A stretch of 64,000 bases of DNA, taken from assembly GCF_900109885.1 (NCBI RefSeq), contig NZ_FOBS01000002.1:62001-126000 (forward strand), in the 5' to 3' direction. The translations under genes and the position numbers were made by a program. A model generated the notes under the pieces. It made no database searches. It was given only the letters and a program-made list of their open reading frames with translations, and had not been told where the DNA came from. Below are positions 4,607-43,149 of this stretch, piece after piece. This DNA is from Syntrophus gentianae (GTDB lineage Bacteria > Desulfobacterota > Syntrophia > Syntrophales > Syntrophaceae). Position 1 is the first letter of the stretch, and the number at the start of each line of letters is the position of its first letter.

Positions 4607-5226
4607 GATAGCAGCGCCCCTTCCAATTTCTTAACAGCCGGCTCCAGAATGACGAGGTGTTCATGATTCAGAACATCATAAACATTAATGCCTTCGGACC
4701 TGATCATCTTGATTCCTTCTATATTTCTGGAAGACTTTTCCAGAAATTCGTTTCTCTCGTCCGTAACAAACAATGCCTTCTTCAATCCAAACCGATCCAC
4801 GACTTCCTGAAACTTTTTCGTTTTTATTTCTTCCAGCGGAAAATCCTTCAAGACGACCAGCTTCTGTCCCTGATACTTCATACTCAATACGGATCGCAAG
4901 GCACTCTTTCTGATCTTTTTCGGAACTTTATATTTGTAATCTCTCTGCACTGGTCCGAACACGATTCCGCCACCACGCCATATGGGTGATCTGCTCGTTC
5001 CTGCACGGGCCCGTCCTGTCCCCTTTTGCCGCCAGGGCTTCTTGCCACCGCCACTTACATCACTCCGACCTTTGGTCGCTGCCGTACCCAAGCGCCGTGA
5101 CGCCATCTGCATTCTCACTACGTCATAAACAACCGCATCATTAACTTCAGCACCAAACACGGCATCACTAAGCTCGATCTCGGACACTTTATTTTTAGCA
5201 ATGTCATATACTTCAGCAACCAACAT
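4603..5226 (-). CDS. rplD: 50S ribosomal protein L4
   Basis: Tunnel-constriction protein, and the autogenous repressor of the S10 operon in enterobacteria. It is 207 residues from the ATG at 5224-5226 (MLVAEVYDIAKNKV), preceded by GAGGGGA. The frame opens 10 codons earlier, but that extension lacks family similarity. The extended loop GGGKKPWRQKGTGRARAGTS is conserved. Whether L4 autoregulates here is not visible; no S10-type leader hairpin was recognised upstream of rpsJ. Confidence 0.96.
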   Translation of the reverse strand: MLVAEVYDIAKNKVSEIELSDAVFGAEVNDAVVYDVVRMQMASRRLGTAATKGRSDVSGGGKKPWRQKGTGRARAGTSRSPIWRGGGIVFGPVQRDYKYKVPKKIRKSALRSVLSMKYQGQKLVVLKDFPLEEIKTKKFQEVVDRFGLKKALFVTDERNEFLEKSSRNIEGIKMIRSEGINVYDVLNHEHLVILEPAVKKLEGALLS

Positions 5227-37479: not shown

Positions 37480-37845
37480 ATGAACCAGCTTCTGTGGGAA
37501 GAAGAGAAGGAAAAGCGAAGAGAGGAATCGGAAAAGCGGCATGCCCGAATGGCCAAGCTTTTTCGAGAAGACCGTCTGGCCTTCGAACGGGAGCGTAAAC
37601 GGCTGCTCGATGAATTTTTCAGCAGTGTCGAGGATGAAGACCTGCGCCAGCGGCTGCGCGCCCTGCAGGCTTCCTTTGAAACGAAAATGAAACACGCCGG
37701 ATCAGCCCATAACCGGTTCGTGCTGGCCCAAACAATCTTCTGGGATAATTTTCATCAGAACTGGCAGCCCGGCATTCAAGAGATCAATGAATCCCTGAAG
37801 AACCTTTCAGGAAAATTCGCCGCCCTCAAGGACTCGGATCACTAA
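37480..37845 (+). CDS. Small charged coiled-coil protein, DUF3135-like
   Basis: A 121-residue protein starting at ATG 37480 (MNQLLWEEEKEKRREESEKR), chosen because GAGGAGG lies 5 nt upstream; the frame is open 23 codons earlier. The first half is a highly charged helix. The segment AKLFREDRLAFERERKRLLD followed by LRALQASFETKMKHA resembles DUF3135 proteins, whose function is unknown. No signal peptide or membrane span. Its stop overlaps the stop of the converging beta-barrel gene by 4 nt. Confidence 0.7.
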   Translation: MNQLLWEEEKEKRREESEKRHARMAKLFREDRLAFERERKRLLDEFFSSVEDEDLRQRLRALQASFETKMKHAGSAHNRFVLAQTIFWDNFHQNWQPGIQEINESLKNLSGKFAALKDSDH

Positions 37846-38663
37846 CGTCCGCGATTCTGATAGGCATAGGTCACGGCGATGCCTACCGAGAACCTTTCGG
37901 AATACTGGCCTTCCGCATTGAGGAAAAATCCCTTTCCCAGAGGCACTGAAATTCCGGCATACCCACCCAGCATCGCTTTATTCTTCAGAGTGGCGTCCTC
38001 TTCCGCCAATGGAATTCCGGAAATGTGATGGGAGGCGGATACCCTGGCTTCCGAATAATGGAGATAGGGGCCGGCATAAAGCACGATCCCATAGGGAACG
38101 GTGGCAGAAACACTGATCCCCGACGTAATGTCCCAGAGATCTTTCACTTTGAGTTCCGTTGAATAGGGGGTGCTGCTGGTGCTGCTGTCCAGGCGCCCCG
38201 AAACCTCGTCCGTAAAGCCGCTGAAGAAATAGGTGCCCTGGAGAAAAGCGCCGACTCCGAAAGATTTTCCCAGCGGGAAAAAAATCTTCGCCCCCAGTGT
38301 GCCGAAAAACTTCTCATTTTCTTCAAAATCGTCTTTGGAAGAGGTGGTTGTATTTACTTCAGACCGGTAGGCATCGTCAATTTCCAGATCTGCGATTCCG
38401 ATTCTCCCGTAAACTTCCCAGAGGTGGCGGGCGCCACCGTAGGCCACCTGTGAGTATATCTGGTTCTGCCGAATGACATACGTCCCGTCATTCTCAAATT
38501 TATCTTCGTGATATCCATAGCCGACGGCCGTATTCAAACCGCCGTCTTCCCTCGAAAGAGACTGCGGGGGGCCGAAGAGACCGCCCGCGACAGCGGGTCC
38601 CGGGATGAAAAAAAGTATCAGTAGAAGCGATATCCCTATAAAGTTCACAACTTTCTTAGTCAT
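37842..38663 (-). CDS. Outer-membrane beta-barrel-like protein
   Basis: A 273-residue protein from ATG 38661-38663 with GGAGG 5 nt upstream; the frame is open 18 codons earlier. The N-terminus is a signal peptide (MTKKVVNFIGISLLLILFFI...AVAGG), followed by alternating polar and hydrophobic short strands rich in Gly and aromatics, ending in a barrel-like GIAVTYAY strand. I do not recognise a named family. It lies 68 nt downstream of mlaA on the same strand, so it may be the last gene of the mla operon. Confidence 0.75.
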   Translation of the reverse strand: MTKKVVNFIGISLLLILFFIPGPAVAGGLFGPPQSLSREDGGLNTAVGYGYHEDKFENDGTYVIRQNQIYSQVAYGGARHLWEVYGRIGIADLEIDDAYRSEVNTTTSSKDDFEENEKFFGTLGAKIFFPLGKSFGVGAFLQGTYFFSGFTDEVSGRLDSSTSSTPYSTELKVKDLWDITSGISVSATVPYGIVLYAGPYLHYSEARVSASHHISGIPLAEEDATLKNKAMLGGYAGISVPLGKGFFLNAEGQYSERFSVGIAVTYAYQNRGR

Positions 38664-38731
38664 TCCGACCTCCGGCGTCTCCGCGTCTTCCCTTGGTAAA
38701 AGGTCCTTGCTCTTCATCCTGTCCCCACCTG

Positions 38732-39781
38732 TTACGGCATCTTTTTTTCTTCCCCAGATGGGGCGTTGTTCTCCGTCTTGTTTTTACGGGCTTCAATTTT
38801 CTTCTTCCGATGCTGGACAAAGGCATCCCGGATGGACAGGTAAGGATCGATGGCCGCTCCCTTGAGGGCCTCATAATCCCCGATTCTCAGGGAGGTATCG
38901 TTTACCGCATCATATCCCCGAACCGCCATGGGGGCATACCAGGGATTCAGGTAGGAGGCGGGATAAAGAAAATATCTGCCGGCGATATCGACCGTATCGC
39001 GAAGGCTGGAAGGTCCCAGGAATGGCCAGAGGATATAGAAGCCCGGCCCCACGCCGTAGACGCCCAGGGTTTGCCCCAGATCGACATTCTGTTTCGGAAT
39101 GTCCAGTTCTTCTTTAGACGAGGGATCCATAAGGCCCCCGATACCCCAGAGGGTATTCACGAAAAACCGGCCTGATTCCTTGGCGGCGCCATTAAAGTCC
39201 GCCTGCAGCAGGCAACTGAGGAAACGGAGCGGAAAGGCGAGGTTTGAAAAGAAATTCTGAACGCTGATCCGCGCCGGCTCGGGAACGACCTTGCCATAGG
39301 CCTGCGACACGGGCTTGAGCAGCCAGAAGTAGAACTTGTCATTGAAATGGTACATGGCCCGGTTAAAGGGCTCCAGGGGATCGGCGATGGTTGCCGGCGC
39401 CTCCTCCCCTTCCTCCGGCACATAATCGGATTCCAGTTCTTCATCCGAATCCTCTGCACCGGGCCCCTCCGTCTCCGGATTCGTCAAGGATTCTTCGGGG
39501 GTTGTGCCTTCCGGGACATCTTCACCCGACACGGCATCCTTGTCCGGGTCACCGGTTGAAGCATCAAGCTTTTTCGGAGTCTCGACACGTCCGAGGGTGG
39601 ACTTTGCCGCCTCTTCAGGGAATTCCTGCGATATTGGCTCAATCTGGGTTGAGCTTCCCGGCGTTTGGAACATAATTGGTGTCCCCCCTGAGGCCGCAGA
39701 GGAAGACGAGGCTTCAACGCAGGGGACACTGACTATAACAAGAAGAACAAGAAGAATGATCGCCGGACAGAGCTTTTTCAT
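38732..39781 (-). CDS. mlaA: MlaA (VacJ) family phospholipid-transport protein
   Basis: Outer-membrane component that removes misplaced phospholipids from the outer leaflet, 349 residues. The signal peptide (MKKLCPAIILLVLLVIVSV) is followed by a long acidic Ser/Pro/Glu-rich stretch (about residues 45-130) not found in E. coli MlaA. The conserved domain begins DPLEPFNRAMYHFNDKFYFW and includes ISVQNFFSNL, FVNTLWGIGGLMDPSSK and DLGQTLGVYGVGPGFYILWP. The only N-terminal cysteine, in SVPCVEA, is preceded by Pro and does not form a standard lipobox, so lipidation is uncertain. Confidence 0.94.
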   Translation of the reverse strand: MKKLCPAIILLVLLVIVSVPCVEASSSSAASGGTPIMFQTPGSSTQIEPISQEFPEEAAKSTLGRVETPKKLDASTGDPDKDAVSGEDVPEGTTPEESLTNPETEGPGAEDSDEELESDYVPEEGEEAPATIADPLEPFNRAMYHFNDKFYFWLLKPVSQAYGKVVPEPARISVQNFFSNLAFPLRFLSCLLQADFNGAAKESGRFFVNTLWGIGGLMDPSSKEELDIPKQNVDLGQTLGVYGVGPGFYILWPFLGPSSLRDTVDIAGRYFLYPASYLNPWYAPMAVRGYDAVNDTSLRIGDYEALKGAAIDPYLSIRDAFVQHRKKKIEARKNKTENNAPSGEEKKMP

Positions 39782-39809: not shown

Positions 39810-40403
39810 CTATGTTTCTTTCACCTTTTTCCTCAGGGTCTGGAGCAGCTGTTCGGGGCTGTTTTTAGCCAGAATTTCATTGAATTGCGTGCGATAGTTC
39901 TGGATCAGACTGATATTCTCCACAACGACGTCATAGACTCTCCAGACGTTTCCTTTCCGGATCATTCGATAGGTGAACGGGATGGTCTTCGAAGAGGTGA
40001 CAATCCTCGTTTTCACCTCGGCCTGATTCTCAGAAATCATGTTTTCCCTGTCAAAGATGACTTCCTCGTTGGCATAGGCAAGAATTCGGTCTGCGTAAGT
40101 CTTCTCGAGCACCTGCCGGAAGAGATGGACGAACTCATCGCGCTGAGCGGCATTAAGATTATTCCAGTTTCTCGCCAAGGCACGTTTGGAGAGTTCCACC
40201 TCATCAAACATCTGAATGTAAATAGTCCGGAGTTTATCCTTTTTGCGCTCCTTGGCCGATGGCGATTTGAGCGCCGGATCTTTCAGTATCGCAAGAATCT
40301 TATCAACATGAACATGAACCGTGTCCATGGCCACACCGGCAAACACCCATGTCGGCGCCAACAGAAACAACCCCAATACGACACTACTTAGAAGTCTTTT
40401 CAT
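39810..40403 (-). CDS. mlaC: MlaC-like periplasmic phospholipid-binding protein
   Basis: Soluble shuttle between MlaA and the inner-membrane MlaFEBD complex, 197 residues. It has a signal peptide (MKRLLSSVVLGLFLLAPTWV, cleavage near VFA-G) and the Ttg2 domain with the segments ARNWNNLNAAQRDEFVHLF and NVWRVYDVVVENISLIQNYR. Its ATG overlaps the mlaD stop by 4 nt. Confidence 0.93.
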   Translation of the reverse strand: MKRLLSSVVLGLFLLAPTWVFAGVAMDTVHVHVDKILAILKDPALKSPSAKERKKDKLRTIYIQMFDEVELSKRALARNWNNLNAAQRDEFVHLFRQVLEKTYADRILAYANEEVIFDRENMISENQAEVKTRIVTSSKTIPFTYRMIRKGNVWRVYDVVVENISLIQNYRTQFNEILAKNSPEQLLQTLRKKVKET

Positions 40404-40888
40404 AATGAATCCTTTTCTTTTTTGTCGGCATCATCCTTCTTTTTAACCTCTCCAAAGGCATATTTGCCAATGAGGCTCTCGATATCCAATGCCGGCTGCG
40501 TTTCGGTAATCGTTCCTCCCGGACGAAGGAGATCTCCGCCTCCCCCTGGATCGATGCTGAGATACTTGTCGCCGATCAATCCTTCCGTTTTGATGGAGGC
40601 GATGGCATCATCATAGATTTTAATGTCTTTCTTGATTGTCATTTCCACAACGGCTTTCTGATCCTTCTGGTCGATGAAAAGTCTTTCCACCCGGCCGATT
40701 TCGATGCCCAGCATATCCACCGTGCTTCCCGCTCTCAAACCGGAAACCGAGGTAAATTGAGCCCGAAGCTTATAGGTATCTTCGCCGAAGAGGGATACAT
40801 GGCCGAGTTTCACGGTCATGTATCCGACCAGAATCAATCCGAAAACGATAAAGACACCTACCGTTGTTTCCATGGCATATTTTTTCAT
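40400..40888 (-). CDS. mlaD: MlaD-like MCE domain protein
   Basis: Inner-membrane-anchored periplasmic lipid-binding subunit, 162 residues. One N-terminal membrane helix (TTVGVFIVFGLILVGYMTV) precedes a single MCE domain with the hallmarks VSGLRAGSTVDMLGIEIGRV and EGLIGDKYLSIDPGG. The C-terminus is a short Lys/Asp-rich tail. It begins 4 nt after mlaF. Confidence 0.95.
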   Translation of the reverse strand: MKKYAMETTVGVFIVFGLILVGYMTVKLGHVSLFGEDTYKLRAQFTSVSGLRAGSTVDMLGIEIGRVERLFIDQKDQKAVVEMTIKKDIKIYDDAIASIKTEGLIGDKYLSIDPGGGGDLLRPGGTITETQPALDIESLIGKYAFGEVKKKDDADKKEKDSL

Positions 40889-40892
40889 GACT

Positions 40893-42137
40893 TCACTCCT
40901 GCGCTGCGCACTGTATGCGGCCGATTTCTTTCTGCTGGCTCCTTGCGGACTCGATGACGGACTCTACCTGTTCAAGCAGGTTGCCCTGGGCCTGTCCGGC
41001 AAGAACAATCATTTCGACGCACTCACCCAAGCCTAGCTTTCCACCGGCCTCAGCCTGAAGATCGCGAATGCCCTCCTTCTGGAAATCTTGAATGAAATCC
41101 ATCATAATGGCATCCGCTTCGGCCCGATCCGAATAGGGAAGCATGGTCACAAATTCCTGAGAATTGATCCGGGTGGAAAACCCTCCGATAGGACCAAAGT
41201 GTTTATCAATGACCCGTCCGGCGCTGTAGATCGCCTTCTGTGCCGCGTCGTACCCCAAATTGGTGGCGACGGCATCCAGTCCCTCCAAGGTAAAGATCAC
41301 AATGGTGAAACTCTCCCCCAGGGCGCTCCCTTTCAGGCTCGCATGATACTGGATCTTGAACTGCCGTTTGGAACGAAGCCCCGTCAGTTCCTGCTGCAAC
41401 CCCTCGAGGCTGCGGAGGACTTCATCCTTGAAGGGATGGTTGAAATCCTCGAGTTCCTCCACCGTTCCCTGAAAAACAATGGTCCGATTATAAAGGGCGA
41501 GAATGCGGTTGGAGATGAAGTACACATCGGGAATCTCATGGCTGACCAGGATCGCCGTAAAGCCGAATTTTCGCTGATACTGGGCGATCATGCTCAGGAT
41601 GGCATTTTTCCGCACGGGATCCTGCCCGGAAGTCGGTTCATCGAAAAGGACAATCTGGGGATCGATGACCAGGGCTCGCGCCAGGGCTGCCCGCTTCTGC
41701 ATGCCTCCGGAAAGTTCGGACGGGTACTTGAACATCGCTTCGCTAAGTTCCGTTTGCTCGATCCGTGCCATGACCCTGCGGTCGATTTCCGCTTTTTTCA
41801 GCTTCGTCGTTTCTCGAAGGGGCAGGGCAACATTGTCGTAGACAGTCATGGAATCGAAGAGCGCGTTGTCCTGAAACATGTAGCTCATCCGGCCCAGGGC
41901 GTCATACCGCTCCCTTTTGCTCATCCGGTCCAGGGATTGCCCTCGGAACAAAATGGTCCCTTCATCGGGTTGGAGCAATCCGATGATATGCTTGAGGAGC
42001 ACGCTCTTCCCCCCACCGCTCAAACCGATGATGGTCGTGACCTCGCCCTCGTAAATTTTCAGATTCACCTTTTCCAGGACGGTGAGAGAACCGAAGCGCT
42101 TCGTCACATCCCGGAATTCGATCAGCGGGTTATCCAT
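40893..42137 (-). CDS. mlaF: MlaF ABC ATPase with a C-terminal degenerate GGDEF-like domain
   Basis: ATPase of the phospholipid ABC transporter, 414 residues where MlaF is usually about 240-270. Residues 1-250 are a complete ABC domain: Walker A GLSGGGKS (38-45), signature LSGGMQKR (142-149), Walker B LFDEPTSG (164-171), switch His200. Residues about 275-395 form a second domain whose order of motifs resembles GGDEF domains: FTIVIFTLEGLDAVATNLGY aligns with the metal-binding strand and helix, and STRINSQEFVTMLPYSDRAEA aligns with the GGDEF loop (NSQEF at 325-329). The metal-binding Asp and the first two glycines are missing, so cyclase activity is unlikely. The reading frame is continuous. 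Confidence 0.92.
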   Translation of the reverse strand: MDNPLIEFRDVTKRFGSLTVLEKVNLKIYEGEVTTIIGLSGGGKSVLLKHIIGLLQPDEGTILFRGQSLDRMSKRERYDALGRMSYMFQDNALFDSMTVYDNVALPLRETTKLKKAEIDRRVMARIEQTELSEAMFKYPSELSGGMQKRAALARALVIDPQIVLFDEPTSGQDPVRKNAILSMIAQYQRKFGFTAILVSHEIPDVYFISNRILALYNRTIVFQGTVEELEDFNHPFKDEVLRSLEGLQQELTGLRSKRQFKIQYHASLKGSALGESFTIVIFTLEGLDAVATNLGYDAAQKAIYSAGRVIDKHFGPIGGFSTRINSQEFVTMLPYSDRAEADAIMMDFIQDFQKEGIRDLQAEAGGKLGLGECVEMIVLAGQAQGNLLEQVESVIESARSQQKEIGRIQCAAQE

Positions 42138-42145
42138 AACAGACC

Positions 42146-42994
42146 TCAGAGCAGAAGGGAAGTGACCACATAATCAGAAACCAGGATCAGCACACAGGAA
42201 AGGACCACGGCCGAGGTCGTGGCCAGACCGACGGCCTTTGCCCCGTGGCTCTCTTGTCGCATGTGGGCGAAATAGCCCTGGTAGCAGCAGACCGTGGCAA
42301 CGATGACCGCAAAGACAAGGGCCTTGATAAACCCGTCGGTGACATCCTTCAGCTCCACGCTGGACTGAACGCGATAGAAATAGGTCCCGGCATTGGCGCC
42401 CATGATCCAGACCCCGGAAACATAACTCCCCAGAATGCCGATCAAGTCGAAGAGGGTCGTCAGGATGGGAAAGCTGATGATGGCCGCGGCGATTCTCGGA
42501 CTGACGAGGTATCTCAACGGATCGATGTGCATGGTGTCGAGGGCGTCAATCTGTTCGGAGATGCGCTGAATCCCGATTTCCGCCGTAATGGCCGATCCGG
42601 CCCTGGCAGTGATCATGATGGCGGTGAGAACGGGTCCCAATTCCCGGATCAGCGACAGAGCGACGAGGGTGCCGAGGGCCCCTTCCGCGCCGACTTTGAC
42701 CAGGGCATGGTAGGATTGAAGGCCCAGAACCATGCCGGTAAAGAGACCAACGAGCATGATGATCATCGTGGATCTCGCCCCGATATAGTAAATCTGCGAA
42801 ATCACCTTCTCCAGCTGGCGGGGACGGAGAATCTTCCAAGAGGCCAGCAGCAGGAAAATTGCCGCTGCGCCGGTATGGTTTACCCAGTTGAGCACCGTTC
42901 TTCCGAGAAGGGAAAAGGGCAGAGAGAACAATCTGCCCGCCTGCCAGCGTTCCCCGTTTCCCAAAGAATCTTGAATATTTGCAGGAACCTTCAT
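42146..42994 (-). CDS. mlaE: MlaE family ABC transporter permease
   Basis: Inner-membrane permease of the phospholipid transporter, 282 residues from the ATG at 42992-42994. A TTG 21 codons upstream is an alternative; neither has a strong ribosome-binding site. The MlaE core is clear: ISQIYYIGARSTMIIMLVGL, ELGPVLTAIMITARAGSAIT with AEIGIQRISEQIDAL, and LVSPRIAAAIISFPILT, with five or six membrane spans. It is the first gene of the E-F-D-C-A operon; no MlaB (STAS) gene is present. Confidence 0.93.
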   Translation of the reverse strand: MKVPANIQDSLGNGERWQAGRLFSLPFSLLGRTVLNWVNHTGAAAIFLLLASWKILRPRQLEKVISQIYYIGARSTMIIMLVGLFTGMVLGLQSYHALVKVGAEGALGTLVALSLIRELGPVLTAIMITARAGSAITAEIGIQRISEQIDALDTMHIDPLRYLVSPRIAAAIISFPILTTLFDLIGILGSYVSGVWIMGANAGTYFYRVQSSVELKDVTDGFIKALVFAVIVATVCCYQGYFAHMRQESHGAKAVGLATTSAVVLSCVLILVSDYVVTSLLL

Positions 42995-43149
42995 AAATCG
43001 AGTCTCTATCCGGGAAGCATTTTCAAATTCTTTCCCTGTTCGGCATAAGCCCAGCAAATGATTAAGCGGTTTTTATTATCAGCTCCAGGTGTCGCAAGTC
43101 AAGAGAAGCTTCCTTACTTTTTACAGGATATCGCCAAAGTCGGCCATTT

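Follow-up and report, generated by a model that had tools for sequence, protein, structure and literature searches.

The ATPase subunit MlaF of the Mla phospholipid transporter of Syntrophus gentianae is extended at its C-terminus by a degenerate GGDEF domain, which its sequence predicts to be a catalytically dead pseudo-diguanylate cyclase. We favour, with moderate confidence, the view that this tail serves the Mla ATPase as a fused module for dimerisation or regulation and stems from a single old GGDEF fusion.

The window, a stretch of 64,000 nucleotides, corresponds to C2:62001-126000 of the 3.7 Mb genome, which is distributed over 71 contigs. The mla genes were identified in it as follows:

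42146..43057, minus strand: mlaE permease (Pfam/NCBIfam)
40893..42137, minus strand: mlaF-GGDEF fusion gene, 414 amino acids from ATG (translation and Pfam/NCBIfam)
40400..40888, minus strand: mlaD, MCE protein, short form (NCBIfam OM_asym_MlaD, 146 bits, above the cut-off; Pfam)
39810..40403, minus strand: mlaC (Pfam)
38732..39781, minus strand: mlaA lipoprotein (Pfam)

The genes form a tight operon with the order mlaE-F-D-C-A, in which mlaF is the second gene and is adjoined by mlaE, mlaD and mlaC, the neighbours expected of an MlaF gene. The operon encodes a complete Mla phospholipid transporter, with mlaF coding for its ATPase subunit. The real start of mlaE probably lies inside the called ORF (MKVPANIQ...), and no STAS part was found in this gene by Pfam or NCBIfam. 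A search of the mla operon with Rfam gave no match. The closest public MlaF, with 87% identity, is that of Syntrophus sp. PtaU1.Bin005. Behind mlaA lies an ORF of 291 amino acids (37842-38717, minus strand) with no significant Pfam or NCBIfam match, whose product looks secreted and is possibly an outer-membrane barrel.

The fusion protein is composed of the following elements:

41406..42137, minus strand: ABC ATPase domain, residues 1-244 (motifs by sequence; structural match to 6xbd)
41382..41435, minus strand: connecting helix between the ABC domain and the tail, residues 235-252 (full-length model)
40896..41405, minus strand: degenerate GGDEF domain, residues ~245-414 (Pfam, profile-profile comparison, fold)
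41376..41387, minus strand: LTGL turn at the start of the GGDEF fold, residues 251-254 (sequence and alignment)
41289..41291, minus strand: Thr283, replacing the catalytic metal-binding Asp (alignment to canonical domains)
41151..41165, minus strand: NSQEF, residues 325-329, replacing GGDEF (sequence and alignment)

The ABC part is of the MlaF type, as judged by its sequence and predicted fold. Residues 21-170 match ABC_tran of Pfam (1.3e-33), and the top NCBIfam match, PRK11831, covers residues 4-234 with 205 bits, a score below the 441-bit cut-off of this full-length equivalog. The top structural match of the ABC part is E. coli MlaF (6xbd; Z 31.0, rmsd 2.2, 243 residues aligned), with which the domain shares 38% identity. 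The Walker A (GLSGGGKS), signature (LSGGMQKR), Walker B (IVLFDEP) and His-switch (SHE) motifs are intact by sequence, and ATP hydrolysis driving phospholipid transport is predicted from them. Only ABC proteins were among the matches listed in a fold search with the full-length model, one domain having filled the list, and the tail was therefore folded alone.

Beyond the end of the ABC domain, near residue 244, come about 170 further residues. The preliminary description had read this tail as a degenerate GGDEF domain from its order of motifs. That order is correct, with LTGL, a strand bearing Thr in place of the metal Asp, a helix, and RINSQEF in place of RxGGDEF, and Pfam, profile-profile comparison and the predicted fold agree with the assignment. 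The tail alone passes the cut-off of the Pfam GGDEF family (PF00990; 25.3 bits, E 1.5e-5, cut-off 23.8), while the whole protein remains just below it (22.6 bits). Of 28 homologous tails, 27 match the family when E values up to 1 are admitted, the best of them at 1.6e-11, and divergent tails reach up to 78 bits (8.5e-22). GGDEF proteins lead the list when a profile of the tail is compared with PDB sequences (6zxb, 9e-8), and the top NCBIfam match of the tail is LapD (4e-5). Against the six canonical GGDEF domains encoded by this genome, profile-profile comparison gives 97.0% and 8.9e-11. The AlphaFold2 model of the tail alone (pLDDT 82, pTM 0.80) has the helix-strand order of the GGDEF fold; it matches SadC in Foldseek (6.1e-9) and PleD in VIA-align (Z 16.5, rmsd 2.9 over 154 residues), and GGDEF domains are present in all 50 top entries listed in its fold search. 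Sequence profile, profile-profile comparison and modelled fold thus identify the tail as a GGDEF domain. A GGDEF family search of the S. gentianae genome missed the mlaF tail, so that counts of this kind are lower bounds.

Across the phylum to which the window belongs, the genome search found the long form of MlaF in about 50 of 395 genomes, from many families; where other genomes gave a match, it was mostly to a short MlaF of about 250 residues. A tree of 76 ABC domains, built quickly and weak at many of its branches, places every one of the 49 tail-bearing rows in a single supported clade of 60 rows; presence and absence of the tail require 5 state changes on this tree, compared with 22.4 in shuffles. 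The history of the tail is compatible with one old gain and several losses. In two relatives (L078 and L168) the tail is gone and a stub resembling its first residues is left (EELTREEARRRFRM in L078), the trace of a secondary loss. At another locus (L140:477-6829), two MlaF genes with a tail, each from a different subgroup, lie about 3 kb apart on one contig, with an MlaA-like gene between them. In one family (f46; L141, L165 and L166), MlaF-like ATPases were found for which mlaE and mlaD homologues were not detected within about 5 kb.

Functional sites were placed by aligning 75 distinct tails to the canonical GGDEF domains of the S. gentianae genome, and the aligned columns are named by residue function after PleD and its numbering. 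The catalytic metal Asp, present in 6/6 of the canonical domains, is Thr283 in the tail, and the motif reads RINSQEF where RxGGDEF is expected; the loss of the metal Asp and the change of GGDEF to NSQEF, both noticed at the outset, are borne out by the alignment with these six domains. The guanine-binding Asn and Asp are replaced in S. gentianae by Ala and Gln, and both the R and the D position of the I-site RxxD are occupied by Gly. Across the distinct tails, Thr or Ser stands at the metal position in 57/75, and Gln takes the place of the guanine-contacting Asp in 57/75. Since the metal Asp, the GGDEF motif, the guanine contacts and the I-site are all lost, the tail is classed as a pseudo-diguanylate cyclase and is predicted to be catalytically dead. 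The Arg before the motif, by contrast, is kept in 75/75 tails, and the Leu-Thr-Gly of the entry turn is retained in nearly all of them. In the proteins LapD, WspR and PleD, the link from the incoming helix to the GGDEF domain is held in place by a pairing of this Arg with an Asp that directly precedes the LTG loop (PMC3032553); the partner Asp is found in only 27/75 tails. In line with the same work (PMC3032553), the connecting helix of MlaF appears to sit where diguanylate cyclases have their signalling helix. With the active sites lost but the Arg and LTG retained, catalysis would be gone, and the mechanical connection (fold, LTG turn and Arg) has largely stayed.

The main rival reading is that the pocket of the pseudo-GGDEF domain is a nucleotide sensor, binding GTP, ATP/ADP, c-di-GMP or another nucleotide and gating the ATPase, which we regard as unlikely. 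It would account for the consistent, not random, replacements in the pocket (Gln and Thr/Ser, each in 57/75 tails) and for the basic residues found at the phosphate-contacting Lys/Arg positions in most of the main group (K/R 52/65; R/K 44/65), although these C-terminal columns contain a gap and are less surely aligned. A divergent minor group of 10 tails retains the I-site Asp in 10/10 and the I-site Arg in 6/10, and the genome of S. gentianae has canonical diguanylate cyclases, so that c-di-GMP is probably made. However, the S. gentianae tail has lost the metal Asp, the two Gly of the motif, the I-site RxxD and the guanine Asn, and the same holds largely for the main group. The loss of most canonical GTP and c-di-GMP contacts counts against these two ligands at the classical sites, but leaves room for a different ligand or a protein that binds the tail.

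No mlaB is present in the mla operon of S. gentianae, as the preliminary description had stated and as Pfam and the STAS scans of the neighbourhood confirm. It had also been proposed that the tail replaces MlaB, that is, does the job of this STAS subunit by stabilising MlaF and its association with MlaE. The tail is indeed located where the E. coli extension contacts MlaB (PMC7367683), and a comparison of STAS_2 matches with MlaF positions, contig by contig, found a STAS gene within 10 kb of the tail-bearing MlaF in 0/49 genomes, 8 of which have no STAS_2 match at all. Yet the count is likewise 0/50 for tail-less MlaF of the same phylum, 16 of these genomes being without any STAS_2 match, and a second neighbourhood scan with the STAS proteins of S. 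gentianae as queries agrees. Long and short MlaF are thus alike in having no adjoining STAS gene: the absence of MlaB does not track the tail, and the replacement of MlaB, which we consider distinctly improbable, finds no support in the comparison, which does not refute it either. MlaB is sparsely distributed in diderms, and MlaEFD systems that do without it have been described (PMC10665443); a missing MlaB is the rule in our sample, with or without a tail, in agreement with that survey. Because MlaB is not universal in Mla systems, its absence is not defining, and the assignment of the protein to MlaF stands. Three STAS proteins encoded elsewhere in the S. gentianae genome match anti-sigma factor antagonists, and none of them reaches the cut-off of the MlaB model. 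Two of their genes were rejected as mlaB candidates because of their kinase-like (HATPase) neighbours, an arrangement seen in partner switching; the remaining one, on the short contig C55, may encode a partner of MlaF in trans.

Two further loci of the same genome contain related components. A second MCE-type system (L089:2705-5679, contig C4) combines an MlaE that carries an N-terminal STAS fusion with an MlaF lacking the tail. At L091:3892-6081 (contig C27), an ORF of 127 amino acids (4761-5144; open frame 174 amino acids) lies between a third MlaE and an MCE protein. It has no Walker A and bears a weak likeness to the C-terminal half of an ABC ATPase (E 6e-4 in hhalign, at a probability of only 29%). 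This ORF is conserved in 19 of the 31 genomes searched, comprising S. gentianae and its relatives, and it would be unusual for a lipid permease to have a partner that lacks a Walker A.

The dN/dS ratio is 0.14-0.25 for the tail versus 0.04-0.14 for the ABC part, with dS near saturation in the more distant pairs; the L016 pair (dS 0.59 and 0.70) gives 0.18 and 0.04, respectively. By this measure the tail is under purifying selection. Its faster evolution relative to the ABC part, together with its loss in some relatives, indicates that it is not indispensable. The same faster evolution and secondary losses would suit a passive relic, a once-active GGDEF domain that now merely stabilises the polypeptide and regulates nothing, but this is very unlikely for a tail that is intact and in frame across many families, has a dN/dS well below 1 and shows consistent substitutions at the pocket positions.

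According to our preferred reading, a fused dimerising or regulatory module, the C-terminus of MlaF would have been joined to a GGDEF domain, probably once and long ago, and the domain would then have lost its catalytic, substrate and inhibitory sites. In the resulting protein, a helix would exit the ABC domain where E. coli MlaF carries its 25-residue C-terminal 'handshake', and the chain would turn via the conserved LTG loop into the pseudo-GGDEF fold. Two such folds, or one such fold and a partner protein, would pair and thereby stabilise or tune the closed ATPase dimer. In E. coli the 25-residue extension crosses to the other MlaF and touches MlaB, and MlaF fails to join MlaED when MlaB is missing (PMC7367683). 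The pseudo-GGDEF domain begins at approximately the same point of the chain as this extension. We infer the pairing, the contact with the ATPase and the regulation by the domain; in the full-length model (pTM 0.64) the relative placement of the two domains is uncertain.

Among known systems, the protein resembles E. coli MlaF (MlaFEDB; 6xbd, 6xgy) in its ABC domain, its partners MlaE, MlaD and MlaC and its intact-reading ATPase motifs, but has a 170-residue pseudo-GGDEF domain and an operon without mlaB where E. coli has the 25-residue extension and MlaB. The tail shares the fold, the order of elements, the LTG turn and the Arg before the motif with the diguanylate cyclases PleD, SadC and WspR, and differs from them in that the metal Asp, the motif, the guanine contacts and the I-site are replaced and in its fusion to an ABC ATPase. 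LapD and FimX likewise keep a dead GGDEF fold as a regulatory or structural part; unlike theirs, the MlaF tail has no EAL domain and its partner is a transporter ATPase. A GGDEF-EAL-type protein of the same genome (L149, contig C12), whose GGDEF part is seemingly degenerate (TGGDF, metal Asp replaced), is LapD-like at a glance. MetN, which is among the PDB matches, also has an ABC domain followed by a small C-terminal regulatory or dimerising domain, of a different fold. MalK and ModC are ABC ATPases with a small C-terminal regulatory or dimerising domain as well, again with a fold unlike that of the MlaF tail; in contrast to these three proteins, the tail has no known ligand. The MlaEFD transporter of Veillonella parvula lacks MlaB too, but has a short MlaF extension, a long MlaD and neither MlaA nor MlaC, unlike S. 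gentianae (PMC10665443).

A search of the open literature, with subscription papers and preprints outside its range, returned incidental co-mentions only and no description of an MlaF-GGDEF fusion, which is thus undescribed in the literature searched. How an active MlaB is controlled is an open question according to the authors of the MlaFB study (PMC7367683). A transporter ATPase with a built-in pseudo-signalling domain and no adjacent mlaB offers a natural case that is testable by the deletion of a single domain. With this protein, the ATPase of a lipid transporter joins the places where dead GGDEF domains were reused. Should the pseudo-GGDEF domain be a re-specified receptor for a nucleotide or second messenger that switches phospholipid transport on and off, to which we assign a low probability, a cytoplasmic signal would directly control the outer-membrane lipid traffic of these anaerobes through a domain built into the transporter itself.
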